DNA of 36,038 nt, taken from Carboxylicivirga marina. GTDB lineage: Bacteria; Bacteroidota; Bacteroidia; Bacteroidales; Marinilabiliaceae. The notes under the pieces are model-generated. The model made no database searches. It was not told the origin of the DNA and saw nothing but the letters and a program-made list of their open reading frames with translations. Within the stretch, counting starts at the first letter, position 1. Every line of letters starts with the position of its first letter. The stretch spans positions 1 to 36,038 of the forward strand of contig NZ_JAENRR010000049.1 in the NCBI RefSeq assembly GCF_016612505.1, given 5' to 3'. Shown here one piece after another: positions 11,588-29,621 of this stretch. The translations under genes and the position numbers were made by a program.

Positions 11588-14500
11588 TCAGCGAACAATC
11601 ACTTTTTTAAACATCCCACCCAATGCAATAACATAAAAACCAGGCTTCAAACTACTTACCTTTTCAGTTTGAAAGGCCTCGATATTGCTTTGTCTTGGTA
11701 GTCGCCCACTTGAATCATAAATTGCATAACCATCCTTCTTATCAAGGGGGTTTTCGATGTAGAATGTTCCGTTTGAAGGATTAGGATATACCTTCAATCC
11801 AGGCTCATCCGTTGTTGAAAATTTTATATCTGTTGGAAGATTATCTGGTTGATTAGCAAAAAGCAATTTAGGCTTATTGCCAGTACTTTCCATGGCATTG
11901 TAATACAAGACATGACTGGCACTGGAACCATCCAAACAAAGAATCATATTCACTTGCTCCTCATTAATACATTGATTCAGATAATCACTCACATCAAAAG
12001 ATAAATAAGTACCCAAGAAGCTTTCATCAACATTAATAAGCGCACCTGTTTCAATGAGACTCATGGTTTGTAGATCGTCCCAGACTGTTACGCCACAGGT
12101 GAAATCATCTTCATGCACACCATAAACCATAACCTGATTATTGAATATTGAGGATGAACTTTTATTTAAAAACACCTGAAAGGAAGCACCAGCCAGCTCT
12201 TCATTAAAACCACTGATATCAAAGCTAAAAAGACCTTTACGTCCCCAGGATGAAGCATTTTTTTGCTCAATCAGCGCTGATGTGTAGTACCCGTCGGCCT
12301 GGGTTTGTCTAACCATACCGTCACAAACTACCCCAATCTCATCTTCAAAAAGGTAAATTCCTAACTGATCACCAGCAGTTCCTCTTCCAATAGCATCGGC
12401 TACATGCGTTATGGCTATCACTGTATTTTCATCAATAACTTCCTGAAAAGTATAGGGTGAAGTGGAAATATCATTTAAGTTTACGACATTATCATTTACC
12501 GTATAGCTGAGTTGCCAGGGAGCTGTTCCTTTTAACTCAATGAAAACATCAACCGTTTCGCCTTGCTGCACCACTGATGGTCCAGAGATAAGGGCTTCAC
12601 ACTCAATTATATCATTCACCCATTTACGCAAGGTTGCTCGTTGAGGGATATTCTGTAATACCCATCGTAAATCATGATTGCGATAAGGGATGGATAAATA
12701 AGAAAAGTCACCTTCAACACCCGTATTACTAAGGTATGTTTTGGTGGCCGTTGGCCCAGCTCCTTCCTGTATTATTAGTTGTGGTTTTCCATCTAAACGC
12801 TGTAACCGTGTCAAGGCCGAGGCGGCATCGGCATTCGGATAACTCCAATGTGTTAGCACTCCATCATAGTGACTATTGGCAATAAAACCACTCCATAACG
12901 ATGCAATCTCATCATTATGCAAACCAATGTAATTACAGGCAATTGCACCACGTGAGAAACCAGCGACAAAAACCAGCGAAGAATTACCTCCATAGTTATC
13001 ACAAATATGGTTAACCGTATTAATAGTGTACTGAACAGAGGCTTCAATATCACCCCACCAATATAGTTGATTCTCCTGCCCGTTTTCACTCACAAAGGGC
13101 ATACTAATCCAAATAAAATCTTCACCCCCACTAATACCATAACCCATATAGGTATCGTCAGGTTTACCCGTGCACACATCACCATATTTGTTATAATAAG
13201 GGCCATTACCGGCATATTCGACAATCACAGGATATTGCTTTCCTGCTTCCCAGTTCGTTGGCAGATAAAGTGTGTGATACACATTAGTTCCTTCGTAAGC
13301 TGCCAATGTTTGTTTCACACGCTTACCTGCAGCAGGAGCTTCCTGAGTTAACTCTGGCATGATTAAATCAAAAGCCTCATTTCTGATATCAGGCATGGAA
13401 CTCCAACTTGTAATGTTGGTCGTGTAAGTAAAATCTGTCCAGTCATCTGTTTTAAATGGTGAAGCCGGCAAACCTTCAGTATTAAAAAAGTTTGGCACAG
13501 CAGTATTATGCCAGGCAAAGCGCACTGCCATCGGTTCGTCTACATATGGTGAACTCACGACAATATCATTGCCATCAACAAAAGCGTTACCCTGGTAGAA
13601 TTTTTTATCGCTTCCGGCTATGGTAAACCAATTTAGCTCTGCATAGTTATCGGCTATGCCATTCTCAACAAAGTTAAAAGTTAAACGAATGGTATTACCT
13701 TCAATGGCATAGGTTTTATAATCGGGTCCTGAATAATTCTTTTCTGAATAGTTATAGGTTTGATTCAATACTGTATTGGCCAGTCGAGCACCCACTTCTT
13801 TTTTATTCGTTGGGTGTAAATCATTGACATCGCCCTGATCCATGGTCACGATTAAACCGGTGTTAGCAATGTTTTTTGAAGCCATTCGCTGTGCTTCGCG
13901 GACGGTAGATGCACTGTATGGGTTGCCTGATTCTTGTTGTGAAGTGGTATAATCATACGGTGGTATTTGCACCAGGTAAAAAGGTAGGTTAGCGTTATTA
14001 AATTCATTTCGCCATGACTGAATCATGGTTTCCAGAGCTTCGTAGTAGTGGCTCGCCCGCACGCAATTGGACTCACCTTGATACCAGGCCACTCCTTTAA
14101 GACTGTAATCCAGTAATGGATGAATCATGGCATTAAAAACGGCCGTTGGCACTTTTGATTCAACGGTGGTTTCGTAAGTATTATAATGATCGGCCAGGTA
14201 GGTTTTAGATAAAAGTGCCTCTTTGCTCATAAAAGCTTCAATGGAGGAACTGCCAAAAGAAGCATTAATTAACCCAACAGGTGTGTTTGTCAGGTTGTTG
14301 ATTAGGCCTTTACCAAAATAATAAGCTACAGCTGAGAAGTTTTCTAAAGATGTAGATGAACATTGTTCCCAGGTAACATTGGCGATATTATTCTGTGGCT
14401 CCGAAGCCGTTGCGGATGGCACATTGAAAAGTCGTAAAGGTGTATTGCCTGCATTGGCTATTTCAGCATCGCCATTGTCTTCGTACAGCATTCTAAAAGC

Positions 14501-14896
14501 CATATTTGATTGTCCGGCACACAACCAGACTTCACCGATGAGTACATCAGATAGAATCACTTCATCATCATTAGTGAATATGCGAATGCTTTGAGCATCA
14601 AATGAAGCTGCCGGTGTATTGAATGAGATAAACCAATTTCCATTAACATCTGCAGTAGTGGATAGTTGCGAAGTCCATGTAGGTTCTATTATCACCTCTT
14701 GGTTAGCTAAGGACGTTCCCCATATTTTCACTTCATCATTTTGCTGAAGTACCATGTTAGAACTGAAGACATTAGAGACCAATAATCCTCCTGAAATGTT
14801 GTTATTTTCTATAGCAACTGCGTGTTGTTTGCCACTAATTATTTGTACAACAAAACATACAAATACAAGCATTGCAACATGGAGCATTCTCTTCAT
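11588..14896 (-). CDS. T9SS-exported dual esterase: SASA-type O-acetylesterase plus alpha/beta-hydrolase
   Basis: The 1102-aa product joins two esterases. Residues about 36-490 are a sialate-O-acetylesterase-type (SASA) SGNH domain. Its nucleophile motif is GQSNM (S130), with WYQGESN (271-277) and the Asp-His pair at D359/H361 (NDLHPTNK). Residues about 525-765 are an alpha/beta-hydrolase with the nucleophile elbow GFSRG (S648) and a candidate catalytic His at 741 (NHDLRW). Its acid is not clear; it is closest in appearance to feruloyl/acetyl-xylan esterase or PHB-depolymerase-like enzymes. An Ig-like module (APWQLSYTV), a DNRLRE/CBM96-like jelly roll (about 860-1010) and a type A T9SS tail (VYPNPSNGTFYIENP) follow. 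Both triads look intact, so it should remove acyl groups, presumably acetyl, from the target glycan at the cell surface or outside. A terminator hairpin lies just upstream. Confidence 0.85.
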   Translation of the reverse strand: MKRMLHVAMLVFVCFVVQIISGKQHAVAIENNNISGGLLVSNVFSSNMVLQQNDEVKIWGTSLANQEVIIEPTWTSQLSTTADVNGNWFISFNTPAASFDAQSIRIFTNDDEVILSDVLIGEVWLCAGQSNMAFRMLYEDNGDAEIANAGNTPLRLFNVPSATASEPQNNIANVTWEQCSSTSLENFSAVAYYFGKGLINNLTNTPVGLINASFGSSSIEAFMSKEALLSKTYLADHYNTYETTVESKVPTAVFNAMIHPLLDYSLKGVAWYQGESNCVRASHYYEALETMIQSWRNEFNNANLPFYLVQIPPYDYTTSQQESGNPYSASTVREAQRMASKNIANTGLIVTMDQGDVNDLHPTNKKEVGARLANTVLNQTYNYSEKNYSGPDYKTYAIEGNTIRLTFNFVENGIADNYAELNWFTIAGSDKKFYQGNAFVDGNDIVVSSPYVDEPMAVRFAWHNTAVPNFFNTEGLPASPFKTDDWTDFTYTTNITSWSSMPDIRNEAFDLIMPELTQEAPAAGKRVKQTLAAYEGTNVYHTLYLPTNWEAGKQYPVIVEYAGNGPYYNKYGDVCTGKPDDTYMGYGISGGEDFIWISMPFVSENGQENQLYWWGDIEASVQYTINTVNHICDNYGGNSSLVFVAGFSRGAIACNYIGLHNDEIASLWSGFIANSHYDGVLTHWSYPNADAASALTRLQRLDGKPQLIIQEGAGPTATKTYLSNTGVEGDFSYLSIPYRNHDLRWVLQNIPQRATLRKWVNDIIECEALISGPSVVQQGETVDVFIELKGTAPWQLSYTVNDNVVNLNDISTSPYTFQEVIDENTVIAITHVADAIGRGTAGDQLGIYLFEDEIGVVCDGMVRQTQADGYYTSALIEQKNASSWGRKGLFSFDISGFNEELAGASFQVFLNKSSSSIFNNQVMVYGVHEDDFTCGVTVWDDLQTMSLIETGALINVDESFLGTYLSFDVSDYLNQCINEEQVNMILCLDGSSASHVLYYNAMESTGNKPKLLFANQPDNLPTDIKFSTTDEPGLKVYPNPSNGTFYIENPLDKKDGYAIYDSSGRLPRQSNIEAFQTEKVSSLKPGFYVIALGGMFKKVIVR

Positions 14897-14992: not shown

Positions 14993-16957
14993 TTACTTCT
15001 TAATAATAATCTTGCTTACCTTCTGCTTGTCGTTAATTAAGCTAACGATGTATTGACCTTTAGGTAAATTGGCCATGCTAATACGGTCATTGTTAACAGG
15101 AGTTGAAATTACTACCTGCCCTAGCATGTTATACACTTGTGCACTTGTAAATTGCTCGTCACTGTTAATGAATAAATCAGTAGTTACAGGGTTTGGAGCC
15201 AAATTAACTTCCACCTCTTTGGTATCATCACCAATGGCTGTTGGTACATCAAATGAAATTGAAGGACGTACATCAACATTGGCATTAGTTAAATCCCTAA
15301 ACTTAGCCAAAATACTATAAGCATCATTTGGAGTAGATAAAATAACCGTAAACTGGTTTTTCGTACCTAAAATATCATTCACAAAAATATCATTAATGTC
15401 CCACTCTACGATTGAGTTGATCATACTTTCAGTAACCGTAACGGCAGCAGCTAGTGGTGTGCGATCGACCATTGCAGTGCGGGTTGACCAAATCATATCA
15501 TCACCATATAAACCATCGGCATAATCACAATTGATGTTGATCGAAGGATTATCAGTAGGTTGCTTAGGATTACCTGCAAGTGAATACATGTATAATTTCA
15601 ATTTATAGTTAGTCGCATTTTGAGGAATCCCAGCTCCTGTTAGGTCAAATGCTAAATGAATCTCTTTGGTATAATAAGGTGCTCCAGCTACATCATTGTT
15701 TTGATCCCCCCATGTATCGTACTTAACTTCCAAACGAGCAATATCCAATAGTCGATCCCCAGCTTCTTCGAGATACATATCTTTTTCCGGAGCTACATAA
15801 TTACCAACAATGTCCACCCAAATAGCATCGTCATTTGTACCACCTGTACAACCGTTACCATCAGTAACAGCTACATGAACCTCATTCGTACCAAAAGTAA
15901 ACGCATCATTCATACTTGAAACAGTTAATGTACTGTTAGTCTCGCCGCTAATGGCAACGCTATTATTGTACCACTGGTAGGCATTAAAACTACTTCCTGC
16001 ATTTAATGTTGCAGATTCACCTTCACGAATAGTGAAATCATCGCCTAAAAATGGAGCTGCTGGCAACGGATTAACTGTAATAGTTGTATTGATGGTTTGA
16101 GTAGCCGAAGCATCATCTGATGTAATAACATCAGTATGCGGGCCTGCCGTGTCGTAGTTTTTAAAAGTATTAGGCCCCACTTGCACCTCATAAGAATCAC
16201 CATCACAAATTGCCACATTGTTGTTTACTGTCCCATCAGCAATAAATAACACGTGGTATGTATCAATCTTTTCAGCACCACAAGCAGTTGTTGAAACTTC
16301 TTCATAGGTACCGGAAGTTGTTACTGTTTCTCCATCAATCACAATTGACGTTCCTTCTACTAATGTTTTTTCGATGGTATTGTATTCAGGGAGACAATTA
16401 GACAACACTGAAATATATGGTTTATTACCTGTGCCTGTACCTAAACTATAGAACTTAATCAATGCTGCATTCTCGTCACGGGAACTCATACGAATTGTTA
16501 ATGCACTTTCTCCTGCAGTCAGGGCCGCATTGTATGCTGTGGTGATGTCCACTTCAACCCAGCCATAAGCTGTATTGTTAGTCTGAACGGTTGCCGCATC
16601 TGCAAAACTAGCATCAGGTTCTTGATTATCAAAATTTAAAGTCACATTCCCATCTCCATCTACAGGCAGACCTCCAGCCATCGTTTTAAAGTCTACTGGC
16701 CAGTCTCCGGCTGTATTTGAGTTATAGTAATACACATGAAGCTTAACCTGCGTGATATCAACACCACTAACAGGTACTTCTACATATGACACTCTGGAAT
16801 AGGTAATTGTCTTTGCTTTAACTTCCAGAACAGTTTCTGTGAAAGAGGTGCTTCCTTTCTTAACAAATCCACTTTTCGTGGCTTCAACAATTTGTTGTGC
16901 ATTTATTTGCATCATTGCAAATACGGCACATAACAAGAGTAAAAATCTTTTTTTCAT
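14993..16957 (-). CDS. T9SS-exported non-catalytic protein with two jelly-roll (DNRLRE-like) modules
   Basis: The 654-aa product has a signal peptide (MKKRFLLLLCAVFAMMQINA). An N-terminal jelly-roll-like module follows (about 25-190; VKLHVYYYNS, WVEVDITTAYNAAL, NKPYISVLS). A middle part (about 190-385) has Ig-like features (INTTITVNPLPAAP, ATLNAGSSFNAYQWYNN). A second jelly-roll-like module covers about 390-570 (KDMYLEEAGDR, EIHLAFDLTG, WDINDIFVNDIL). The type A T9SS tail carries VNLAPNPVTTDLFIN. No hydrolase, lyase or esterase motif is visible. It sits directly after susD, where Sus-type loci usually encode surface glycan-binding proteins (SusE/SusF or SGBP). I infer a binding role with T9SS export in place of a lipid anchor. 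Confidence is high for architecture and lower for function. Confidence 0.75.
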   Translation of the reverse strand: MKKRFLLLLCAVFAMMQINAQQIVEATKSGFVKKGSTSFTETVLEVKAKTITYSRVSYVEVPVSGVDITQVKLHVYYYNSNTAGDWPVDFKTMAGGLPVDGDGNVTLNFDNQEPDASFADAATVQTNNTAYGWVEVDITTAYNAALTAGESALTIRMSSRDENAALIKFYSLGTGTGNKPYISVLSNCLPEYNTIEKTLVEGTSIVIDGETVTTSGTYEEVSTTACGAEKIDTYHVLFIADGTVNNNVAICDGDSYEVQVGPNTFKNYDTAGPHTDVITSDDASATQTINTTITVNPLPAAPFLGDDFTIREGESATLNAGSSFNAYQWYNNSVAISGETNSTLTVSSMNDAFTFGTNEVHVAVTDGNGCTGGTNDDAIWVDIVGNYVAPEKDMYLEEAGDRLLDIARLEVKYDTWGDQNNDVAGAPYYTKEIHLAFDLTGAGIPQNATNYKLKLYMYSLAGNPKQPTDNPSININCDYADGLYGDDMIWSTRTAMVDRTPLAAAVTVTESMINSIVEWDINDIFVNDILGTKNQFTVILSTPNDAYSILAKFRDLTNANVDVRPSISFDVPTAIGDDTKEVEVNLAPNPVTTDLFINSDEQFTSAQVYNMLGQVVISTPVNNDRISMANLPKGQYIVSLINDKQKVSKIIIKK

Positions 16958-16997: not shown

Positions 16998-18791
16998 CTA
17001 GTAGCCCGGGTTATTGTTATTTATCAAGTTATTTGTTTGTATTTCAGTGTAAGGTATTGGCCACAAGTAACCTTTTACCGCATCAAAAGAACGTTCGCGG
17101 AAACTATAAACTTCATACTTTGGCTGCACATACTCTACTATAAGATCACCATAATCAGCAACTTGTTCTGGTGTAAACACATTATCCATTTGCTCTCTAA
17201 AAGCTTCTTCAGACCTAAATATTTTGTTTAAAAAGTAGCTTTCTCGTGAAAGATAACGCATCATACGTGAAGGAATAATCGCATCATTCTCCATTTCAAC
17301 AATAACATCATCTGTTACCACCCAGTAGAAAAGTAAGTTAGGATCATAGCCCTGGGCATTTGAATAAGCTTCTGTTCCAATATTCCATCGCTTGATATCC
17401 AAAATACGAGTACCTTCAATAGCAAACTCTACACGTCGTTCGTGTTTAATAATATTCATCAACTGTTCATGACTTAAACCTGAACCTTCCACGTCTTCCA
17501 CTTTTGGCATCATCACACTTTGGCGCTGACGCACCTCATTAACCAGTGATTGAATCTCTGCTTCTGCACCTGCACCATCAGTCATACATAAAGCTTCGGC
17601 TTTCATCAGAAGCACATCTGCATATCGAAATAAGATAGTATTGGTTCCTGTAGCCTTCTTTCCGCGCAAACCATGTTCAACATCATAGTTGACGTACTTG
17701 TTAATTCTTAAACTTGAAAAGTTGTAGGCCTTTTTATTATAAGGAATGTAATATAAAACATCTCCGTTGTTATCATAGCCATTAAAAGAATAGGGTACAG
17801 CCAATGTAGCATACAACCTTGGATCTCTGTCTTCAAAAGGCTTTTGTATATTGAAATTAGGATTTGTTTCATCGGCAGGTAATCCTTCTTTCGTGTAATA
17901 GGCATTTGCCAGGCTATAATCTGCCATAAATGAACTCCAGGCATAGAAATAAGTTGTCCATGGCTCGGTCAGTTTTTCATCTGTTTTATCAGCCATGTAC
18001 TGAATATCGAAAATCACTTCACTGTTGTTTTCATTCTCAGGTTTAAATAATCCGGCATAGTCATGGAACAAGAAATAATCACCATCTGTAATGATGGCAT
18101 CACACATTTCTTTGGTAATCGTATAATCGTAATTATTTAAAGCCACCCATGCTTTCAATGCTTGTGCAGCTCCTTTGGTTGCTCTACCGGTTTCTGTATC
18201 CAAACGCCTTGGCAACACAGAAATGGCACTATCCAATTCTGTATAGATAAAATCTATGACATCCTGCTTCGCTGTTCTCTCTCTGTCAGCTCCCTCTATT
18301 CCTTCAGGCTCCAATCGCATGGGAGCATCTCCATAGAAATGCACCAAATCGGCATAGAAATAGGCACGTAGGAAACGAGCTTCTGCATCGTATCGGACCC
18401 TGTCATCATCGGTCATCGTCACATCTCCTATATAAGTTAAAACAGTATTTGCTCTAAGAATTCCCATATAATTACGGGCCCACTTTCTCTCAGCAAACTG
18501 TGAAAACTGGTTATGGCGTTGATCCCAGTATTCAACCACACCCATCCATGATTTATCCATAAAACCATTATCGGTGATAAAGTCAGTGATAATTGGCTCC
18601 ACATTCTGATAATCCAGTCCAGCCAGCCCCATACCTGTCAATGCTTTATAAGTGCCATTAAGAGCATAAACAATATCATTCTCTGTTTCGAAGACTTCCG
18701 GTGACAGAAAGTCTTTAGGGTATCTATTCAGTTCATCCTCACAAGAGCAAAAAAGAACGGCGAATAAAAATGTGTATATAATTGCTTTCAT
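16998..18791 (-). CDS. SusD-like starch-binding outer-membrane lipoprotein
   Basis: The 597-aa protein has a lipoprotein signal ending in LFAVLFCSC (Cys17) and the RagB/SusD pattern. The N-terminal TPR part has SPEVFETENDIVYALNGTYKAL, then YWDQRHNQFSQF and ARFLRAYFYADLVHFYGD. The C-terminal half has RYADVLLMKAEAL, EIQSLVNEVRQRQ and IKHERRVEFAIEGTRILDIKRWN. SusD proteins cap the SusC channel and bind the oligosaccharide outside the cell. It lies 23 bp behind susC, so the two are co-transcribed. A small GC-rich hairpin (16995-17007) overlaps the stop codon. The specificity of the bound glycan cannot be read from the sequence. Confidence 0.95.
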   Translation of the reverse strand: MKAIIYTFLFAVLFCSCEDELNRYPKDFLSPEVFETENDIVYALNGTYKALTGMGLAGLDYQNVEPIITDFITDNGFMDKSWMGVVEYWDQRHNQFSQFAERKWARNYMGILRANTVLTYIGDVTMTDDDRVRYDAEARFLRAYFYADLVHFYGDAPMRLEPEGIEGADRERTAKQDVIDFIYTELDSAISVLPRRLDTETGRATKGAAQALKAWVALNNYDYTITKEMCDAIITDGDYFLFHDYAGLFKPENENNSEVIFDIQYMADKTDEKLTEPWTTYFYAWSSFMADYSLANAYYTKEGLPADETNPNFNIQKPFEDRDPRLYATLAVPYSFNGYDNNGDVLYYIPYNKKAYNFSSLRINKYVNYDVEHGLRGKKATGTNTILFRYADVLLMKAEALCMTDGAGAEAEIQSLVNEVRQRQSVMMPKVEDVEGSGLSHEQLMNIIKHERRVEFAIEGTRILDIKRWNIGTEAYSNAQGYDPNLLFYWVVTDDVIVEMENDAIIPSRMMRYLSRESYFLNKIFRSEEAFREQMDNVFTPEQVADYGDLIVEYVQPKYEVYSFRERSFDAVKGYLWPIPYTEIQTNNLINNNNPGY

Positions 18792-18814: not shown

Positions 18815-21800
18815 TTAAAACTTAAGGTTTAATCCAAGTGAATATATTCTGACCTGCGGATGAAAATCAGGGGTAATCTTATTGAATGATTTTTCGGGAT
18901 CGAAGCCGTCCATTTTACTGAATAAAAAAGCATTTTCGACACTCGCACTAATCTTCAATTCATCCACCCCTATGGCATCAAGATTTGTCAAACGATACGC
19001 CAGTTCAATATTTTTTATTCTGAAATAGGAAGCATCTTGAAGGTAATAAGATGAAACGATGTTGGCTCTTTGTGAGTCGTCATAAACTCTTTGGTACTCT
19101 TCTGATGGATTATCAAATGACCAATGGTTATTCACCATATCCTTTGAAATATTTCCTCGTCCTCCCCAGAAAGGAGTTACTAAAGCGCCCATAATGTATG
19201 CATTAGCTCCTTGCACACCTTGCCCCAGTACATTCAACGAAAACTTCTTATACTCTGCATAAAGGTTAAATGAATAAATAAAATCAGGCTGTGAACTTCC
19301 CATAAAGGTGATGTCATCCTCTGTAATTTTACCATCTGGCATACCTTCTTCTCCACTAACATCTTTATATTTAATATCGCCAGGCATTGGACGCCCAAGA
19401 ATAGCAGATGCATCATCCATTCCTTCTTTCAATACATACAAACGGTCGTAATGTCCAATTGTAGGATCACTGTCGTTTTGCCAAGTAAAATCGTTCACCT
19501 GATAGATGCCATCGGCTAACAAACCATAATAGGAACCAAAAGGCATACCCACCTGCGAACGAATAATATCGGCCGGCGGTTGATAGCCAGATACCACATC
19601 GTTGTGTGCAACATATTCCAGACCTCCTAAATCAAGTACTTCATTTGTCAAATAGGTCAGGTTAGCACCTGCACTAAGACTCCAATTATTCCAATTTTCA
19701 TTATACTGAAGCGATACTTCTAAACCCTGATTGGACATAGAGCCCACATTCTGATATGGTTTAGCACTTGTTGCATTTCCTAACCCCAGGGAATAAGGAA
19801 CATCAATACGACCTAAGATGCCTGTTGTCTTTTTATCAAAGACGTTGGCCGAAACTGCCCATGCATTCATTATAACAGCATCAAAACCAATGTTAGTCTG
19901 CTCAGAAACTTCCCAAACAAGGTTATCATTACCTAATAAAGTTGTTCCCGTACCCTGCACCACAGTATTTCCAAAACTGTAATACTCACCGGCATCCATC
20001 ACATTAAAAGACGGATAATATTCCTTCATTCGTTCATTACCCAATTTTCCCCAAGAGGCTCTGATTTTTAACTCAACTGGAACATCTTCCATGAATGACT
20101 CCTGAGATATGCGCCAACCAGCTGAAAAGGAAGGAAACACTCCCCACCTGTTCTCTTCTGAAAATCGCGAACTTCCATCTCGACGAATATTGGCCTCCAA
20201 TAAATATTTATCTTTATAATCATAGGCTAATCGACCAAAATATGACATGGTTGCCCTTTCATTAATTTGGCCATCGGCTGTTAATGTTTCGGGATCTCCA
20301 AATGGGAAATGGGGCTGATTTGCCAATAAGAATTTTATGGAGAACTGGTCTAAATCGTAATCGTAAGTCAGGTATTCATATCCTAATAAAGCACTTACCT
20401 TGTGACCATTGAATTTCGTACTATAATTAAGAGTTGTAGTTAATGTTGTAGATACAGTACTACTATTGGTCAATTCATACTTCGAATCAGTTAAGGTAGA
20501 AGGTGTATCTTCATCAGGATTACCAGCCAATGCAACTGATGCTAATAACCTTTCTTTATCGTATCGATAAATGGTTTGACCGTATAATACTTTTGCTTTT
20601 AATCCCTTAATAGGTTCTAGTTCTGCACTAAATTGATAATTAAAATTGGTACGTTTAATATCTGTTCCACCTCCGGCTTCATTAATAGCATAGTACCTTG
20701 CTTTTCCTCCATATAAGCCTGGCTCCCCTGTTTCCGGATCGGTCGCTCGAAGAAATCCAATTGGCGAACTATTAGCATTATAAGCCATCACTGACGCAGT
20801 GTTACTTGACAGCTCCTCTTCCTTCTTATTGTAGCCTCCAAAAGAAGCACCTACTCTTAGTTTATTCTTCCAAAACTTACTATTGAGTTTAGCACGATAC
20901 GTCAGTTTGTCCGCACTAGTACCATACAAAACCCCATCCTGATCAAGATAACCTGCTGTAAATGAAAAGTTATAATTCTTTTGACCACCACTAACCGAGG
21001 CATAGTAGTTGTGCATCCAGGCTGGTGAAAAATAAAAATCATATAAATCTACATTCTGTAAACTGGGGTTTGTTCCATTTTTGATTTCCTCCAATTTGTC
21101 ATCATCATAAGGCACATTGGGAAAACCAGAATTTAAGCGTGCTTCATTTAAGAGCGTAGCATATTCATAAGCATTTGCTACTTCCGGGAAGGTTGTCACC
21201 TGTTGAAGTGAACTGGTTACCCTGGCATTTACCTTTAAGCCTGAACTTCCCGTTTTCGTAGTGATAATAATAACACCAGCAGCAGCACGGTTACCATAGA
21301 TTGCTGCTGATGAGGCATCTTTAAGTACTGACATACTTTCAATATCATTGGGATGAACATCGGACAATTGCCCTTCAATACCATCGATAATCACCAGTGG
21401 ATCATTACTATTTTCAATAGAAGAGACTCCCCTGATACGTATCTCTGTTTCATCCTGCCCTGGTTGACCAGAATTCTGCGTTACAATAACACCTGATACT
21501 TTACCCTGTAGGGCCTGCCCAGCATTAGTAATGGTACGCGTGGCAATATCATCGGTATTAACGCTTTCAACAGCTCCTGTAAGATTAACTTTTTTACGAG
21601 AACCATAACCAACGGCAACCACTTCATCCAGTTTCATGATATCGGATACCATATTCACTTCGATGGCTTGACCGGTGACCTTGATTGTTTGTGACTGGTA
21701 GCCAATAAATGAAAAGCTTAACGATTTTCCATTCTCAGCTATAATCGTGAATTGTCCGTTTATATCTGTAATCGTACCGGTATTGGTACCTGTGACCATA

Positions 21801-21919
21801 ACAGTAACACCAGGCATCGTTTCTCCATGCTCATCATATACCACACCAGATACATTTTGAGCTAACAACAAGGTGTTGCACGAAAGTATTAATGCGAGTA
21901 TAAATAGGATTTTTTTCAT
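18815..21919 (-). CDS. SusC-like TonB-dependent outer-membrane transporter
   Basis: The 1034-aa product has a signal peptide, then a carboxypeptidase-D-like repeat (VSGVVYDEHGETMPGVTVMVTGT, residues 23-45). The SusC/RagA plug signature follows (LDEVVAVGYGSRKKVNLTGAV; GQALQGKVSGVIVTQNSGQPG; IRIRGVSSIENSNDPLVIIDGIEG; LKDASSAAIYGNRAAAGVIIITTK). The barrel ends with SLGLNLKF, the typical aromatic C-terminus. There is no N-terminal STN domain, so signalling to an anti-sigma factor is unlikely, consistent with LacI control. It imports oligosaccharides with SusD, driven by TonB. The gene starts 4 bp behind the 929-aa lipoprotein gene, which indicates translational coupling. Confidence 0.97.
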   Translation of the reverse strand: MKKILFILALILSCNTLLLAQNVSGVVYDEHGETMPGVTVMVTGTNTGTITDINGQFTIIAENGKSLSFSFIGYQSQTIKVTGQAIEVNMVSDIMKLDEVVAVGYGSRKKVNLTGAVESVNTDDIATRTITNAGQALQGKVSGVIVTQNSGQPGQDETEIRIRGVSSIENSNDPLVIIDGIEGQLSDVHPNDIESMSVLKDASSAAIYGNRAAAGVIIITTKTGSSGLKVNARVTSSLQQVTTFPEVANAYEYATLLNEARLNSGFPNVPYDDDKLEEIKNGTNPSLQNVDLYDFYFSPAWMHNYYASVSGGQKNYNFSFTAGYLDQDGVLYGTSADKLTYRAKLNSKFWKNKLRVGASFGGYNKKEEELSSNTASVMAYNANSSPIGFLRATDPETGEPGLYGGKARYYAINEAGGGTDIKRTNFNYQFSAELEPIKGLKAKVLYGQTIYRYDKERLLASVALAGNPDEDTPSTLTDSKYELTNSSTVSTTLTTTLNYSTKFNGHKVSALLGYEYLTYDYDLDQFSIKFLLANQPHFPFGDPETLTADGQINERATMSYFGRLAYDYKDKYLLEANIRRDGSSRFSEENRWGVFPSFSAGWRISQESFMEDVPVELKIRASWGKLGNERMKEYYPSFNVMDAGEYYSFGNTVVQGTGTTLLGNDNLVWEVSEQTNIGFDAVIMNAWAVSANVFDKKTTGILGRIDVPYSLGLGNATSAKPYQNVGSMSNQGLEVSLQYNENWNNWSLSAGANLTYLTNEVLDLGGLEYVAHNDVVSGYQPPADIIRSQVGMPFGSYYGLLADGIYQVNDFTWQNDSDPTIGHYDRLYVLKEGMDDASAILGRPMPGDIKYKDVSGEEGMPDGKITEDDITFMGSSQPDFIYSFNLYAEYKKFSLNVLGQGVQGANAYIMGALVTPFWGGRGNISKDMVNNHWSFDNPSEEYQRVYDDSQRANIVSSYYLQDASYFRIKNIELAYRLTNLDAIGVDELKISASVENAFLFSKMDGFDPEKSFNKITPDFHPQVRIYSLGLNLKF

Positions 21920-21923
21920 AGTC

Positions 21924-24713
21924 TTATTTATTTAGCTTTTTCCAATTACTTGTTTGAACTTCTCCATTTACACCTGTTGCCTTAAGCTGAAACTCAACTT
22001 CATTTGCCGAAACAGGTACGGTAAATTCGTAAGGATAAGCATCATCCTTAAAAGTTTTAAATTCATCTTCTTCTTTGATGATTAATTGTACACTTTTAAC
22101 AAGATCATCATCATCTTCCAGGTACAGATAAAGATTTTGAGTTAATTCACCACAATTCATAATCATGGCTTTGGCTTGTCCCACCTCTGTTTCAACAAAG
22201 TCATCTGTCCAGGCATTAGCTGCAGAGAGCATCTGCTCCTGAACTTTCGTGTGAATAATTACACCATCAAAAGAGAGGGATACTTGCCCGTAAGCCGGGA
22301 CTTCAACAGCAATGCGACCATCTTCCAAAGTCAATACATCGCCATTGGTTAGTTTAATTTCTGCTCCATCTTGAATTGAAACAAGTTCAGGATTGACCTT
22401 TACCCAAGTTATTATCGTTTCTCCTGACTGATTTGATAATGCCACATATAGTTTATTATCATTTCTGGCCGAGACATTGTTCAATTCAACAGAACCTGTT
22501 TCAATTAATTTTGGCGGCATCCACAACCAAGCTTCTTCGCCATACCAGCTACCCGGTTTGTGACCATAGAACTTATTTTGCAGATACGCATAGCCTTCAA
22601 TAAACTCAGAAGGGAAGTTGACTTGACCATCCGATTTCACAAAAGCATCTGTTACTAAATAATCGAGCAGCATTGATGCCATCGGCATAATATGGTTATA
22701 GTGGAATGAATTCACACTTAAATCCTTGTGAGGACGCAATGGGTAATCTGCCTTTTCGTAAATTGTTGTACGTGCGGTATTGATATGATAGCCCGGGAAG
22801 TTTTTATAACGACCAATAATAGTCGACTTAGCTACCTCTTTTAAAAAACTATCCTCAGCATAATAGCCTAAACGCAGCATCCAGGGTGCGTAGTTAGCCA
22901 TAAATATGGCACGATGACCAGTACTTGTCCCTGATGACTCAGGTGTTAGTCCTATTTCAGATAAGCGCCAGGCCGGTGCCATTTCCTCATCTGCATACAT
23001 CTGTTTATGTCCCTTCTTATTTAAGTACCAATACATTGGTGCCTTGCCGCCTTCGTTCACCAAAATATCTTCATCTGGAACTTTAGGACTCATCCAGCAA
23101 AACATGGTGTAATAACGTGCTCCTTCCTGCGCAGCATTGAGGAATCGTACTTCATTGCTTAGTTCATAAAGTTCCAATAAGTATATCCAGCGAGGTGCAA
23201 AACCAGTCCAAAAGAAAAAGCCACCTGCCATAGGATCACTAAAATCAGTCTGTGGGGTCATAACGCGAGCTTCAATATAAGCATCAGCGTCTGCAATGGC
23301 TTTTTGTAAATAAGCATCGTCACCGGTAGCCTTGTACATAAACATACTGTTCATCCATGAGTCACCAGCTTCTTCTACATCCAGGTTACGAATTTTACTC
23401 GTTTTATATGACTCTTCAGCCAAACCAACCAGAAAAGGCATGTTTTGTCCGAAAATATTATACAATGAAGTTAACTCGCTAACTGGTGCGATTGGTCCAT
23501 TTAACTTACGTGACGGATGTTGAATCTTTTGTTCTCTATCCAAAGCAAATAGGAACTTCTCACGCGAAATCTGGTATTCCATGGTTGGATAGGCACGCTT
23601 TTCATACATCTCCAAATCATCAGTAACCAATGCAATTTCCAATGGGTTTAGCGAAGAAACGTTCTTCACAGCCCCAGGAACATCCGTGGAATAGGCACAT
23701 CCTTTCAAGCTGTCTATAAACCAGGCATAGTCAGACATGGCGTATTCATTTAAATTCTCAAATGTTTCATTTAAGGTTCCAATGTCATTCTGACGATAAT
23801 CATGAAAATTAAAGAATTCACGCGCAATGGTTTCGTAATTATCGGTGCAATTACCTTTGCCAGCATATAAAATACTAGTGAAAGTATAAGACTCATTAGT
23901 ATCCATCTTTGAATCAGCACCACCTAATACAGGTGCAAACAACATGGCCTGAGCTTCTCCATCAGGATTGTGTACTGCAATTCCAAAGCGACTATTATCT
24001 AACAATGGTAAGGGCTGGAAAGGAAATTCATCAGGATGAGCAATCACACCGTAAGTTGTACCTTCGATGGTAGTCAGTGCAGATGGTATAGGACATCTGT
24101 AAGCTAATGTCATATAGGGACGTTCCGGGAAACGTTTTTCCTGCCAAATCATCGGCTGCCAAATTTCATCAACCTTATCAACTGTTTGCGAAGGTGCATT
24201 CATGAAGGCCAAAGAGAAATATCCTTTTTTCAAAGGTTGCATTTCTACCTTAAAGCAGACTTGCCCATCGTCTTCAAATACTTTGGCAATAATTTGGGCA
24301 TATTCAGTGGCTTTGTAATGTATGAATGCTGTATCGCCCGATTCGCTAATGTCTTCCGGTTCTAATTTTACATTTATACCTGCCTGAAATAGATTAGCCG
24401 TGCGCTTCTCATTACTACTTGACAGGATACTATCATCGAAACCATCTCCATGCTGTGCGTCATCTCGCTTTACCTGTGCCAACAAATCTTCCCCCGACAA
24501 GGCATTCCAGCTGGCAATGTTATATTTTACATTTTCAATTCCTGAAGGGCGCATTTTTAATTTCGGCGCTTCACTGGCAAAAAGCAATGTGAGCTCACTT
24601 CCAAATTTGAGATTTCCCTTTACAATCTCAAAATCCTCGTTTACCTGAACTTTATTGCTGCAGCTTGCAAGCAGTACAATTGCAACAATATATAATAGAG
24701 TTTTCTTCATCAA
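21924..24713 (-). CDS. Lipoprotein glycan-active enzyme of unassigned (alpha/alpha)-toroid-like family
   Basis: The 929-aa product carries a clear lipobox (LLASC, Cys18). Residues 30-300 look beta-rich. From DYRQNDIGTLNETFENL (305-321) to about 700 it is helical. The C-terminal 230 residues are again beta-rich. It matches the 290-1190 core of the 1524-aa protein over nearly its whole length. The most conserved blocks are APAWRLS (579-585), GTSTGHRAIFMAN (595-607), FPGYHIN plus RTT-YEK (639-654), and HYNHIMPMA (671-679). His, Tyr and Arg residues in these blocks are candidate catalytic residues. I do not recognise a named CAZy family with certainty; PL26 or PL40 relatives are candidates. It is encoded just before susC, and its lipid anchor suggests it acts at the outer membrane or in the periplasm. 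The 115 bp before it may hold a secondary promoter. Confidence 0.75.
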   Translation of the reverse strand: MMKKTLLYIVAIVLLASCSNKVQVNEDFEIVKGNLKFGSELTLLFASEAPKLKMRPSGIENVKYNIASWNALSGEDLLAQVKRDDAQHGDGFDDSILSSSNEKRTANLFQAGINVKLEPEDISESGDTAFIHYKATEYAQIIAKVFEDDGQVCFKVEMQPLKKGYFSLAFMNAPSQTVDKVDEIWQPMIWQEKRFPERPYMTLAYRCPIPSALTTIEGTTYGVIAHPDEFPFQPLPLLDNSRFGIAVHNPDGEAQAMLFAPVLGGADSKMDTNESYTFTSILYAGKGNCTDNYETIAREFFNFHDYRQNDIGTLNETFENLNEYAMSDYAWFIDSLKGCAYSTDVPGAVKNVSSLNPLEIALVTDDLEMYEKRAYPTMEYQISREKFLFALDREQKIQHPSRKLNGPIAPVSELTSLYNIFGQNMPFLVGLAEESYKTSKIRNLDVEEAGDSWMNSMFMYKATGDDAYLQKAIADADAYIEARVMTPQTDFSDPMAGGFFFWTGFAPRWIYLLELYELSNEVRFLNAAQEGARYYTMFCWMSPKVPDEDILVNEGGKAPMYWYLNKKGHKQMYADEEMAPAWRLSEIGLTPESSGTSTGHRAIFMANYAPWMLRLGYYAEDSFLKEVAKSTIIGRYKNFPGYHINTARTTIYEKADYPLRPHKDLSVNSFHYNHIMPMASMLLDYLVTDAFVKSDGQVNFPSEFIEGYAYLQNKFYGHKPGSWYGEEAWLWMPPKLIETGSVELNNVSARNDNKLYVALSNQSGETIITWVKVNPELVSIQDGAEIKLTNGDVLTLEDGRIAVEVPAYGQVSLSFDGVIIHTKVQEQMLSAANAWTDDFVETEVGQAKAMIMNCGELTQNLYLYLEDDDDLVKSVQLIIKEEDEFKTFKDDAYPYEFTVPVSANEVEFQLKATGVNGEVQTSNWKKLNK

Positions 24714-24828: not shown

Positions 24829-26658
24829 CTACTCTTCATTTTCCGACACATCAAATGCAAACACGTGTGCCTTTTGATCGCCCCACGTCCTAATTACTTT
24901 TAACTTACAAGCTCTAACCTCTTTTTTAACAGTAAAAAGTTCAATAAAACGCTTTGCATTATCTCTAACTTCAAAAACCTTAGTCCAAACACCACTTTCA
25001 TCAACAATTTCGATATCAAAGTCACGAAGAAGCATAGCCGGCATTTGCTTAGGTTGACGTCCTTTGGGATATTTACAGAGCATACGCTTATCCATAAACA
25101 AATCACTATCAAGCACCAAGCGAAACTTTTTTATCGTCTGTGGCTCCTCCCAGGTGTATGCCACCCAGTCGCCGACATCCCCCCACCAGCCGTGATCTAT
25201 TTTTTTTACACCGTTATTGCGTTTTCTACCTTCCTCGCTATCCGGATCTAAATCCAAAAAACCATATCTTTTATTCGTCGTATCCCTTTCTGTACCATCG
25301 TGTAATATAGATGCATCATCACAAGAAGCGGTCAACTCTGCTTTAAGACTTAATTCAGGTATCTTTCTTGTGTGCCAAGGCAAATAACAGTCTTTTTCCA
25401 TCAACAATTGCTGCAACTGGGGAATTGCATTCTCATAAACTCCACGTGGACTTAGGTTCTGTTTGATAGCAATACTTGCTGCATGTCCAATCGCATGTCC
25501 CATAAGCGAACAGGTTGCCATCACACGGGTAGAACTCATTGCCATATGGCTGGCCGATATATTTCGTCCTGCAAAAAACAGATTATCTATATTGCATGAA
25601 TATAATGATCGATATGGTATACCATAAGGTGAAGGAGAATGGTTAAAATCTGTTGGGTCACCCTCAAATTTTACACCTTGGGGGTGATGGTTATCCATTG
25701 GCCAACCTCCGTATGCGACCATATCATCAAATTTTCCTTCTGCCATCACTTCGCTTTCTATCAAAGTATGGTCACCAACATAACGTATATTTTCCCGTTT
25801 ACCTGGTAAAGAGCCAATCCAATCAATTTCCCAGTTCTTGGCTCTGCCATCAGGGTGATTTTTGATGTATTCCCATACACCGTAGGCCGTTTTAAGAAGC
25901 TCATCCCGTATTTCGTCAGCTTCGGCTATCGTATCCTTTGTACCACCAAATTCCAACCACCAAAAATTATGACCATTTTGCGGATTTAATGCCCGTTTGG
26001 GTGCAGTTTCATCCGTATAAGAATGAGCCCAGCTTGGCGCAATAAATGGAACGTGAAGATCTGTCTCTCTAAGCTGGATAAGAATAGAACTCCCCATTGT
26101 CTTATCATCAGCTACTTCCTGAGCAAATTTTTCACCATACTCTTCCTTGCTTTCTCTCCCCCAGCGATACTTTGCTCCTGATATTTTTAAAACAGAATCG
26201 CCTGAACAGTCAGCAAAAAAAGCTGCAGTAATATCATAGTAACATTGCTGTGTCATATGCCATGCCTTTACAGACTGAATCTTGTTAATTTTAGTGGCAA
26301 CATCCATAACGCTGCAGTTAAGCATTACAGTCAAATTTTCCTGTTCCATGCATGTTCCGTACAAAACGTGATCCCATTGTGCATATTCCAACATGGGGTT
26401 TTCATGAAAATTTTTGAGCATCAACTCTTCCAGGATACCCGTTTCTTTATTATCAGGGCCATCAGCACCACACACCCACATACGCACCTCTGATGAAGCA
26501 TTGCCTCCTAAAACCGGACGATCTTGCACCAAAACGGTTTTTATACCATTTCGTGCTGCCGACAGCGCAGCACATACTCCTGCCATCCCTCCTCCAACTA
26601 CACAAAATTCAGCCTGTATAGAATGAGTCTTAAATTCTTTTATTGATTCTTTTCTCAT
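24829..26658 (-). CDS. Cytoplasmic FAD-dependent oxidoreductase (FAD_oxidored family) of the glycan locus
   Basis: The 609-aa product has a Rossmann dinucleotide fold at the N-terminus (AEFCVVGGGMAGVCAALSAA, residues 16-35), followed by LVQDRPVLGGNASSEVRMWVCGADG, which is typical of the FAD_oxidored (PF12831) family. Further family marks are FFADCSGDSVL and NLFFAGRNISASHMAMSSTRVMA, the second FAD contact. The C-terminal part (about 450-605; WWGDVGDWVAYTW, IKKFRLVLDSDLFM, VRACKLKVIRTWG) looks like a beta-sandwich of the galactose-binding type. There is no signal peptide, so it acts in the cytoplasm. Such genes are frequent in Bacteroidota glycan loci, but their substrate is mostly unknown. It lies 11 bp behind the symporter gene, which suggests it acts on the imported monosaccharide or uronate. 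Confidence 0.85.
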   Translation of the reverse strand: MRKESIKEFKTHSIQAEFCVVGGGMAGVCAALSAARNGIKTVLVQDRPVLGGNASSEVRMWVCGADGPDNKETGILEELMLKNFHENPMLEYAQWDHVLYGTCMEQENLTVMLNCSVMDVATKINKIQSVKAWHMTQQCYYDITAAFFADCSGDSVLKISGAKYRWGRESKEEYGEKFAQEVADDKTMGSSILIQLRETDLHVPFIAPSWAHSYTDETAPKRALNPQNGHNFWWLEFGGTKDTIAEADEIRDELLKTAYGVWEYIKNHPDGRAKNWEIDWIGSLPGKRENIRYVGDHTLIESEVMAEGKFDDMVAYGGWPMDNHHPQGVKFEGDPTDFNHSPSPYGIPYRSLYSCNIDNLFFAGRNISASHMAMSSTRVMATCSLMGHAIGHAASIAIKQNLSPRGVYENAIPQLQQLLMEKDCYLPWHTRKIPELSLKAELTASCDDASILHDGTERDTTNKRYGFLDLDPDSEEGRKRNNGVKKIDHGWWGDVGDWVAYTWEEPQTIKKFRLVLDSDLFMDKRMLCKYPKGRQPKQMPAMLLRDFDIEIVDESGVWTKVFEVRDNAKRFIELFTVKKEVRACKLKVIRTWGDQKAHVFAFDVSENEE

Positions 26659-26669
26659 TATTAAGCGAA

Positions 26670-28313
26670 TTATTGATTTTTTTTATTTCTGAAATACATA
26701 AAGATTCCAAGAGCCAATATGACTCCTCCAACACTTATTATCAATAAACTTGAACTATCAGCAATAATGCCTAAAACACTTAATAATACACCTACTGCTA
26801 TAATACCCCAAGACATAACTTTAATACCATGTACATTAGCAGCAGCCGCTTCCGAACTAACTTCCTCCTCTTTGGTCACATGTGGAGTATCCTCTACATA
26901 TTCTACACCTTTGGCTTTATAGATTGACTCAAACACCACTAATAATGCAATTGGTAAGGCCACGCCCAAAATCATTTCATTAGCGCGTGACAAGGTGATA
27001 TCAAATAAATGTGGTGCCAGAAATTTCATAAATAAGTTAACAACAAGACTTGCAATGGTCGTGAACAATACTGAAAAGCCAGTTTGTCGCTTCGAGAACA
27101 GTGTCCATAAAGGAGGAAGAAACATGGCTGCTCCTGTCAATGATGCGATGGTAAGAATTACATTAACAATACCGCCCATATATGGCACCAACAAAGCAAT
27201 TCCGATTGTTAAAGCACCAAAACCCAAAGTTGCCAGTTTTCCTATTTTCACAAGGTTCAGATCACTTGTATGAGGAAACAATCTTTTATAAATATCATTT
27301 GTAATAACACCAGCTGAGATATTCAATGTGGTATTGATTGAACTGGAAGTTGCAAATACCATTCCTCCTACAATCAATCCAAGCATACCAACAGGCAAAA
27401 CTGTTTTACACATCAACATATAAGCTTCTTCGCTTTGCAAACCAGTTAAACTTGGGTCAATCACGCGGTAAAGCATTGGAGGTAGCATCCACAACAATGG
27501 ACTGATGGTATATAAAGCACCAAACATCCAGCCTACCTTTTTAGCTTCCTTTGGTGAAGATACGGTTGTGTAACGTTGTACAAAGGCCCAGTTACTAGCA
27601 ATAAAAAACAGATTATATAACCCGAACGCCATAAGGAAACCCCATGAGTAGTCTCCACCTGTAAAGTTCAAAAAACCTTCTGGCACTTTGTCAAAGAAGG
27701 TACCCATTCCTCCAACGTGATCAATTGAAAGAGGTACCACAATAATAACGGCGGCCAATAGTACAATAAACTGCAATACGCCTGTCACAACTACTGCCCA
27801 TAAACCACCTACAGCAGTATAAATAGCCATAACAGCACCAATAACGATAATACTATAGGCAGCCGGAATTCCTGACCACACTTCTACAATCTTCGCGACC
27901 GGATATAAAAAACCTCCGGCCGTAAAGATTGACACTCCAAGAAAAAGCAATGTATACGTTTTCTGAATCTCTAAACCTAGTCGTTTGGTTATGTATTCAG
28001 CTACGGTTAATATTTTTGTTTTTTGCCATTTTGGTGCAATCCAGATTCCAATTATAATTCCCGCAATACACATTGTCCATTGAATGGATACTGACACCAA
28101 ACCATCAGCATAAGCTATGGCTCCCCAGACAACGAAAGTTCCCGCTGAAAAGAAACTCATAAATAAGGAAAGGCCATTCATCCACCAAGGCACAGCACCG
28201 TCTGCCGCAAAGAAGGATTTCATGTTGTTCCCAGATGCTTTCGAGAAAGCTATCCCCGTCAAAAACACGATTAGCATAAAAAGTACGATGGCAAGTATAT
28301 CTATTGCACTCAT
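26670..28313 (-). CDS. Sodium/solute symporter (SSS family)
   Basis: The 547-aa product is an integral membrane protein with about 13-14 predicted helices. SSS-family motifs include FAADGAVPWWMNGLSLFMS near the N-terminus and WIAPKWQKTKILTVAEYI, followed by VAKIVEVWSGIPAAYSI and AVGGLWAVVVTGVLQ. A long hydrophilic loop (about 478-497, Glu-rich) precedes the last helices. SSS members bring sugars, uronates, sialic acid or amino acids across the inner membrane with sodium. It is the first gene of the operon, facing lacI, and is followed at once by the FAD oxidoreductase. It is probably the inner-membrane importer for the released sugar. The exact sugar cannot be read from the sequence. Confidence 0.92.
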   Translation of the reverse strand: MSAIDILAIVLFMLIVFLTGIAFSKASGNNMKSFFAADGAVPWWMNGLSLFMSFFSAGTFVVWGAIAYADGLVSVSIQWTMCIAGIIIGIWIAPKWQKTKILTVAEYITKRLGLEIQKTYTLLFLGVSIFTAGGFLYPVAKIVEVWSGIPAAYSIIVIGAVMAIYTAVGGLWAVVVTGVLQFIVLLAAVIIVVPLSIDHVGGMGTFFDKVPEGFLNFTGGDYSWGFLMAFGLYNLFFIASNWAFVQRYTTVSSPKEAKKVGWMFGALYTISPLLWMLPPMLYRVIDPSLTGLQSEEAYMLMCKTVLPVGMLGLIVGGMVFATSSSINTTLNISAGVITNDIYKRLFPHTSDLNLVKIGKLATLGFGALTIGIALLVPYMGGIVNVILTIASLTGAAMFLPPLWTLFSKRQTGFSVLFTTIASLVVNLFMKFLAPHLFDITLSRANEMILGVALPIALLVVFESIYKAKGVEYVEDTPHVTKEEEVSSEAAAANVHGIKVMSWGIIAVGVLLSVLGIIADSSSLLIISVGGVILALGIFMYFRNKKNQ

Positions 28314-28434: not shown

Positions 28435-28543
28435 GATTTTTAAATTTACCATCTAACAGCAGAGTTCCGTAACATTTATTTATTACTCACTAATAGACTC
28501 ATACAGCCAATTCCGTAATGTACTTTCAGTTTTCAACCTGTCG

Positions 28544-28576
28544 ATTTTCGGAAATACCATTTGCATTTCCGAAAAT
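28544..28576. promoter_or_regulatory. Perfect 12-bp inverted repeat, candidate operator overlapping the lacI promoter
   Basis: ATTTTCGGAAAT (28544-28555) and ATTTCCGAAAAT (28565-28576) are exact reverse complements with a 9-base spacer. The TTTG -33 box proposed for lacI lies in the spacer (28560-28563), so a protein bound here would block lacI transcription. This fits autorepression. No poly-T follows, so it is not a terminator. Confidence 0.6.
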
Positions 28577-28590
28577 TTCATCCATATTTG
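28560..28590 (+). promoter_or_regulatory. Putative Bacteroidota-type promoter of lacI
   Basis: TTTG (28560-28563) and CATATTTG (28583-28590) are separated by 19 bases. This is close to the Bacteroidota -33 TTTG / -7 TAnnTTTG consensus with one mismatch. The expected transcript start is about 28597, which leaves a leader of about 15 bases before the ATG at 28611. Confidence 0.45.
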
Positions 28591-28610
28591 CATATGTATT
28601 ACAAGTAATT

Positions 28611-29621
28611 ATGAAGCATATTACCATAAAAGATTTGGCCAAAGAGCTTGGAGTTTCAATATCAACAGTTTCGAGAGCACTAAACGACAAATACGATATT
28701 AATCCTGCTACGCGTGAGAAAATAATAAGTAAAGCGCAGGAGCTTGGCTATTCACCTAATCCTATAGCACAAAAATTACAGCAGAAGAAAAGCAATAATA
28801 TAGGCGTTGTAGTACCGGAGTTTCGAAATGCCTTCTTTCCTGATGTCATTACTGGCATACAGGACATTATGCTTCCATTGGGCTACCAGGTACTTATTAT
28901 GCAATCGAATGAAAATGCAGAAACAGAACTCTCCAATGTCAAAACACTTTATAACAATATGGTGGATGGACTTATCATCTCCTTTAGCTCTGAAACCCAT
29001 AAAACAAGCTATTATAAAAGCATCATCGATGATGGATTCCCAATTGTGCAGTTCAATCGGGTAATTGCCAAGCTCAACACCTCCAAAGTCTTATTTGATG
29101 ATTATGCCTGGGCTTTTATGGCTACTGAGCACCTGATTCTTCAAGGGTATAAAAACATCATTCACCTCAAAGGTCCTAGACACCTTACTTTTTCTATTTC
29201 GAGAGCTAAAGGATTTGAAGATGCCATGAAGAAACATAAGTTACACACTGGAGATAACCAATTTTATGACTCCGGTGTCACAATTGAAGACGGTAAACGA
29301 GTGATGAGTGAGCTTATCGAATGTAATAAACTTCCAGATGCAATTTTTGGTGTAACAGATCCTGTTGCCCTTGGTGCAATGATTGTAATGAAAGAGCATG
29401 GTATTCAAATCCCTAAACAAGTTGGTGTTGTTGGATTTTCCGAATCGCGTTTATCAGAGGTAATTCAACCAACCTTGACAACCATCAAGCAACCTACATA
29501 TGAAATGGGACAGGCAGCTGCTAAACTCTTAATTCAAGAAATAGAAACGAAAATCTCTATTCCGCAGAATATTAAGTTGAGCGGTAGCTTTAAAATTAAG
29601 CAATCGTCGGTGAGGATATAA
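28611..29621 (+). CDS. LacI-family transcriptional regulator of the glycan locus
   Basis: I place the start at the ATG at 28611, giving 336 aa, because the HTH follows at once (ITIKDLAKELGVSISTVSRALN, residues 3-24). The longer frame from 28518 would run through the promoter and the operator. The hinge-like NPIAQKLQQKKSNNIGVVVP leads into a periplasmic-binding-protein-like sensor domain (FFPDVITGIQDIM; ILQGYKNIIHLKGP; PDAIFGVTDPVALGAMIVMKEHGIQIP; TTIKQPTYEMGQAAAKLLI). Length and layout are normal for LacI/GalR regulators. It is divergent from the glycan operon and is probably its sugar-responsive regulator. The inducer is not evident. It may repress its own gene through the repeat at 28544-28576. 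Confidence 0.93.
   Translation: MKHITIKDLAKELGVSISTVSRALNDKYDINPATREKIISKAQELGYSPNPIAQKLQQKKSNNIGVVVPEFRNAFFPDVITGIQDIMLPLGYQVLIMQSNENAETELSNVKTLYNNMVDGLIISFSSETHKTSYYKSIIDDGFPIVQFNRVIAKLNTSKVLFDDYAWAFMATEHLILQGYKNIIHLKGPRHLTFSISRAKGFEDAMKKHKLHTGDNQFYDSGVTIEDGKRVMSELIECNKLPDAIFGVTDPVALGAMIVMKEHGIQIPKQVGVVGFSESRLSEVIQPTLTTIKQPTYEMGQAAAKLLIQEIETKISIPQNIKLSGSFKIKQSSVRI

Follow-up and report, generated by a model that had tools for sequence, protein, structure and literature searches.

The opening 36,038 nucleotides of contig NZ_JAENRR010000049.1 of Carboxylicivirga marina (hereafter the window, meaning this whole stretch) carry a glycan locus encoding two large related proteins, P1 and P2, and raise the question of what these proteins are and which reaction they perform. 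It was found that P1 and P2 belong to a real, patchily distributed and unnamed family of toroid proteins. These are very probably enzymes, and they probably form a CAZyme family that is new although its fold is known, the newness to CAZy being judged from Pfam, NCBIfam and PDB sequences. P1 residues are numbered with the ATG as 1, and the TTG start sits one codon upstream. The features of the two proteins were as follows (T9SS, type IX secretion system; ORF, open reading frame):

21927..24710, minus strand: P1, a 928-residue lipoprotein of an unclassified family (ATG at 24710, codons checked; TTG of the ORF lister at 24713)
2669..7243, minus strand: P2, a 1524-residue T9SS-exported paralogue of P1
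3728..6391, minus strand: shared core of P2, approximately residues 285-1172 (BLASTP and profile hit)
2954..3406, minus strand: CBM96/DNRLRE module of P2, residues 1280-1430 (E 7.7e-20)
2675..2833, minus strand: T9SS type A sorting tail of P2, residues 1471-1523 (TIGR04183, 24.5 bits, cut-off 23)

By BLASTP, 311 of 818 residues were identical between P1 and P2 (38%, 554 bits) in a single collinear alignment, which paired residues 117-914 of P1 (TTG numbering) with residues 369-1171 of P2. The blocks APAWRLS, GTSTG-HRA-FMAN, FPGYHIN-RTT-YEK and HYNH/HYSH were all present in both proteins, in agreement with the shared ordered blocks noticed in a first-pass annotation made from the sequence alone. 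Judged by this similarity, which is far beyond chance, P1 and P2 are homologous. The same annotation had the length of P2 right (1524 residues), but P1 has 928 instead of 929 residues when started at the ATG, and the core of P2 covers residues ~285-1172 rather than 290-1190. It had also placed P1 as a lipid-anchored protein beside susC, which was supported by a lipoprotein signal over the cut-off (PF08139, E 4.8e-4, 20.9 bits, cut-off 20) and by a spacing of only 4 bp between P1 and the SusC-like ORF. The proposed T9SS export of P2 with a binding module fitted the TIGR04183 tail and the CBM96 module, the tail being below the cut-off under Pfam's own model (14.9 vs 27). As a separate observation, an N-terminal module appeared to be common to enzymes of such loci: residues 7-187 of a SASA-esterase relative (L008:12794-16618) were 45% identical to residues 8-192 of P2.

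Searches of Pfam and NCBIfam at E up to 0.1 gave no family name for the core that P1 and P2 share, and NCBIfam gave no family for six members from other branches or lineages. P1 had no match up to E 1 among PDB sequences by phmmer, and the PDB matches of P2 were its CBM96 module plus one weak CRISPR-protein match (E 0.18). The first-pass view that the core has no named family was thus upheld by Pfam, NCBIfam and PDB sequences. When eight members were scanned with Pfam, only L003:2753-5236 exceeded a cut-off on the core, that of PF07944, by 0.3 bits. PF07470 (GH88/GH105) was not matched by P1 or P2; branch C members (see below) reached 20.3-23.7 bits, below the cut-off of 26.6, and some of them showed weak GH88/GH127 matches. 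A profile of 38 aligned family proteins (alignment A1, compiled without a GH97 fusion, partial copies or repeats of one genome) did match PDB sequences of helical toroids, among them GH76-, GH88- and GH127-type proteins; these matches covered short hairpin segments, with a best E of 1.4e-5. In a literature search with general terms, by which a paper could be missed, no publication was tied to the family, including the accessible parts of PMC8377490, PMC6168547 and PMC11848413.

The distribution of the family was patchy. Relatives were encoded in 19 of 22 pattern-matched stretches of a collection of genome contigs (loci L001 and so on), 12 of them from Bacteroidota, five from Verrucomicrobiota, one from a Hydrogenedentota metagenome-assembled genome and one from another bacterium. 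In the phylum survey, 34 of 395 genomes had hits at E up to 0.001; these could not all be taken as relatives, as 30 of the 34 matched only the helical hairpin (~70-130 profile positions), and long matches were restricted to G000, G643, G639 and G582. In the order of the window's organism, P1 was matched in 6 of 393 genomes, its own included, one match covering just 61 residues in a reading frame interrupted by stops. Mostly two candidates per genome were scored in both surveys, so members may be missed. Among 14 genomes of the genus, long matches were found in the window's genome only, with a hairpin-only hit in one other. Neither P1 nor a branch C protein had relatives among plasmid records.

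About five branches were distinguished, with identities of ~20-27% between them: A (P1), A' (P2), B (~1100 residues), C (~850 residues) and D (one long-branch protein). Part of the evidence for them was a quick tree of 41 rows with long branches, of which only the well-supported tips were used. The tree did not include L014 or the incomplete branch C copies from L007, L017 and L019, and members found only in the survey of nine further genomes (see below) are in neither the tree nor alignment A1. It was common for two to four members to lie in one locus. Branches A and A' occurred together in the window, G096 and G223; A, B and C in L005, L006, L007, L017, L019 and G643; B and C in G320; and two A-type proteins in G008. 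G796 (the genome of L003) had four members in 31 kb, and G803 had three in 14 kb. A recent local duplication as the origin of P1 and P2 was ruled out, because the P2-type proteins of three genomes formed their own clade (Shimodaira-Hasegawa-like approximate likelihood ratio test, 100). In Niastella, a P1-like core was fused behind a GH97 enzyme in a protein of 1523 residues (L007:8138-12706).

What fold would such a core adopt? The AlphaFold model of P1 (predicted local distance difference test score 90, predicted template modelling score 0.92) exhibited a beta-sandwich, followed by an (alpha/alpha)6 toroid and a further beta domain. Six inner and six outer helices of the toroid were read by eye from the helix list of the model. 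The predicted domains were:

23811..24662, minus strand: N-terminal beta-sandwich of P1, residues 17-300
22635..23774, minus strand: (alpha/alpha)6 toroid of P1, residues 313-692
21927..22613, minus strand: C-terminal beta domain of P1, residues 700-928

The model and the fold comparison bore out the beta, helical toroid, beta layout proposed in the first-pass annotation. With the whole model, Foldseek gave the best E-values for GH95 (7.9e-8) and GH94 phosphorylases. With the toroid alone, the top Z score was 15.7, for cellobiose 2-epimerase and Lin0763, tied with GH76 at 15.6; this search singled out no one family, and families off that list are possible too. For GH76, GH88/GH105 and the AGE epimerases, the match in sequence was confined to the helical hairpin.

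PL26, exemplified by PcRGLX, combines an (alpha/alpha) toroid with beta domains and is similar to P1 in this respect. It was nevertheless rejected as the family, since there was no Pfam hit at E 0.1 and hhalign of alignment A1 against four PF21346-matching proteins gave only 0.8%. PL40, the other family that the first-pass annotation had put forward for searching, also has a toroid and beta domains, but the accessible part of PMC12915356 describes the PL40 ulvan lyase with the toroid N-terminal and the beta domain C-terminal, an order opposite to that of P1, and PL40 was rejected for this reason. The GH95 and GH139 families (alpha-L-fucosidase, 2-O-methyl-fucosidase) have the order N-terminal beta, (alpha/alpha)6, C-terminal beta according to the accessible part of PMC12282258, as in P1, and a GH95 enzyme is encoded in the same locus. 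Nevertheless, the template modelling scores were 0.14-0.16, and GH95 was rejected as the family, as no PF22124 hit was obtained and hhalign against three GH95 proteins gave 0.2%. The comparison of branches A and C served as the positive control for these failed PL26 and GH95 comparisons, with 100% probability (E 2.4e-44, 651 columns). None of the PDB sequence matches was named GH139, and the presence of GH139 chains in the library was not confirmed. PL27 (L-rhamnose-alpha-1,4-D-glucuronate lyase, BACCELL_00875, 5no8) resembles P1 in its N-terminal beta-sandwich followed by an (alpha/alpha)6 toroid. P1 differs by an extra C-terminal beta domain and by only 8-9% identity in structural alignments; moreover, profiles A1 and A5 gave no sequence match to 5no8, 5nok or 5noa at E values up to 10, in a library described as all PDB entries, in which the presence of these chains was not confirmed singly.

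In toroid enzymes, the active site lies on the face with the long loops. In alignment A1, P209, A526, G587, L588, E591, A627, G633, R634, H673 and D683 were invariant in all 38 rows, and Y641 and R613 were kept in 37. E591, R634, Y641 and H673 mapped to the long loops of the predicted model or close to where its last inner helix begins, and D683 was ten residues deeper within that helix. The codons of the putative active-site residues are:

22938..22940, minus strand: codon of E591, invariant in 38/38 rows
22809..22811, minus strand: codon of R634, invariant in 38/38 rows
22788..22790, minus strand: codon of Y641, kept in 37/38 rows
22692..22694, minus strand: codon of H673, invariant, near the N-terminus of the last inner helix

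Independently of this alignment, hhalign across branches A, B and C paired E591, R634, H673, D683 and R613; Y641 was paired in branch B and faced a gap in branch C. The retention of this invariant polar cluster on the active face across such divergent branches, together with the GH97 fusion, speaks against P1 and P2 being non-catalytic binding or scaffold proteins on an enzyme fold. That no activity is known and that P2 has a binding module would suit such a role, which we consider very unlikely.

Our preferred reading, held at somewhat less than an even chance, is that P1 and P2 are paralogous three-domain enzymes acting as exo- or side-chain-acting glycoside hydrolases of GH95/GH94/GH139 build. 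The best whole-model Foldseek E-values (GH95, GH94), the GH97 fusion and the many glycosidases and esterases among the sampled neighbours (see below) favour this reading. The GH95-like domain order leans towards hydrolysis, as does the scarcity of GH88/GH105 genes: in only one of 17 genomes (G798) did a PF07470 gene over the cut-off share a contig with a member at a distance of up to 15 kb, which also sets the family apart from PL27. Genome-wide, G320, G800, G801 and G803 had no PF07470 gene over the cut-off, and each of the other 13 had at least one somewhere.

Several points weigh against hydrolysis. The set of Tyr, His and Arg residues and the partial PL27 fold match lean towards a lyase, and a second clear acid was not apparent, which counts in the same direction. 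The argument from one carboxylate is weakened because GH95 enzymes are proposed to use a Glu plus an activated Asn (accessible part of PMC12282258). In G798 (Chitinophaga barathri, the genome of L005), the PF07470 gene was only ~150 bp from the member C11:415504-418257, in a stretch with PL8, heparinase II/III-like, GH78, SSF symporter and PF12831 genes and a further member, which rules out an absence of GH88/GH105 near every member. Given this gene content, a uronate-containing glycan is likely there, and the locus too counts for a lyase. The G798 locus therefore moved our estimates slightly, down for hydrolase and up for lyase. The PF07470 gene there can, however, be explained by the PL8 and heparinase-like lyases beside it. 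On these grounds, a family of PL27-like polysaccharide lyases acting by beta-elimination beside uronic acid, with H673 and Y641 as base and acid and R634 and E591 handling the carboxylate, is possible, if less probable than hydrolysis; the rarity of nearby GH88/GH105 genes and the GH95/GH139-like domain order argue against it. Neither a lyase label nor the backbone-cutting role proposed in the first-pass annotation was established. A second Chitinophaga barathri locus (L075:7499-19845 and L076:50-11932) contained two members with PL8, heparinase-like, GH88/GH105, GH78, SSF and PF12831 genes.

A partner strongly linked to the family by position was a flavoprotein gene, found in the window next to P1 (FAD, flavin adenine dinucleotide):

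24829..26658, minus strand: FAD-dependent oxidoreductase (PF12831) without evident signal peptide, the sole full-length copy of the genome

With full-length PF12831 defined as over 230 bits, the first eight genomes contained 22 such genes (1-4 each), and in seven of the eight (not G008) one was within 8 kb of a member; 0.18 genomes were expected by chance within 15 kb (P ~2e-11, with rounded genome sizes). Nine further genomes were reached via L001, L003-L005, L012, L013, L015, L016 and L018, and five of them (G796, G797, G798, G802 and G803; not G795, G799, G800 or G801) had PF12831 within 8 kb, against 0.42 expected (P ~1e-5). Altogether, this gave 12 of 17 genomes vs 0.6 expected. By BLASTP, a PF12831 relative was present in 8 of the 19 contig-collection loci, several of which are ended by contig edges. 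Inspection of the starts by eye indicated no signal peptide in nine of ten relatives. Unlike the other copies, L071:4231-6030, the second PF12831 protein of the G582 locus, has a signal peptide by eye.

This linkage would also suit another sugar chemistry, namely epimerisation, GH88-like hydration or cleavage linked to oxidation by PF12831. The toroid-alone scores for cellobiose 2-epimerase, Lin0763 and GH76 and the weak GH88/GH127 matches of some branch C members point the same way. Such chemistry appears unlikely, as the large secreted three-domain build and the binding modules of P2 fit polymer-acting enzymes, and the flavoproteins lacking a signal peptide would be in another compartment.

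The remaining genes of the window locus were:

7268..9739, minus strand: GH95 enzyme (PF22124, E 5.1e-143)
9816..11513, minus strand: right-handed beta-helix protein (PF13229, exactly at the cut-off)
11588..14896, minus strand: SASA-type carbohydrate esterase with CBM96 and T9SS tail (Pfam)
14993..16957, minus strand: secreted CBM96 protein with T9SS tail (Pfam)
16998..18791, minus strand: SusD-like protein (recognised from sequence)
18815..21919, minus strand: SusC-like transporter (recognised from sequence)
26670..28313, minus strand: SSF sodium:solute symporter (Pfam)
28518..29621, plus strand: LacI-type regulator (recognised from sequence)

In the SASA protein, a further weak esterase/depolymerase match was obtained at residues 622-661 (E 0.005), so that the protein may be a double esterase. 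Outside the locus, the ORF 268-1839 ends in a Q/E repeat run and, by eye, looks like an AlbA-type ATP-binding regulator.

Neighbours elsewhere were sampled rather than exhaustively counted, and were largely glycosidases and esterases. GH95 was a neighbour in the window (Pfam), in L008 and L013 (BLASTP) and as a cut gene in L012. Other glycosidases were GH29 (L016, L018), GH106 (L003, L011, L069), GH2 (L007, L070, L071), GH97 (L007, L017), GH31 (L003, L068) and GH3 (L067). GDSL proteins were found in L004, L005 and L067, three sulfatases in L003, and PL8, heparinase-like, GH88/GH105 and GH78 genes in L075 and L076. Three loci were a poorer fit: in L010 the neighbours scanned were acyl-CoA dehydrogenase and CoA-transferase genes, those scanned in L015 were of DUF1501/PSD1 type alongside a GDSL protein with cytochrome c, and a T9SS-tailed protein was the only neighbour identified in L009. 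The sample suggests as substrate an acetylated, at times sulfated or uronate-containing, fucose- or rhamnose-rich glycan, presumably a heteroglycan with uronic acid in some loci.

If P1 and P2 are hydrolases, as we prefer, they would be inverting enzymes in which E591, on the long-loop face beside R634, Y641 and H673, serves as the general acid. P2, exported by the T9SS with its carbohydrate-binding module, would act on the polymer outside, and P1, which is lipid-anchored and encoded together with susCD, would attack the same linkage or a next one at the cell envelope. The released sugars would then be taken up by the SSF symporter, and the PF12831 flavoprotein would process them in the cell. 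A bolder version, which seems improbable to us, is a new CAZy family whose several old paralogues (A, A', B, C and D), retained together at a locus, attack one bond after another in the same deoxy-sugar-rich glycan through a chemistry new to toroid enzymes, import-coupled to a cytosolic PF12831 protein needed for an unusual released sugar.

Lying outside Pfam, NCBIfam and solved structures, and residing in glycan loci of Bacteroidota and Verrucomicrobiota, the family lends itself readily to the search for new enzymes. The association of its genes with those of one flavoprotein and one symporter provides a testable pathway, and in the window an exported copy and a lipid-anchored copy are available in one compact locus.
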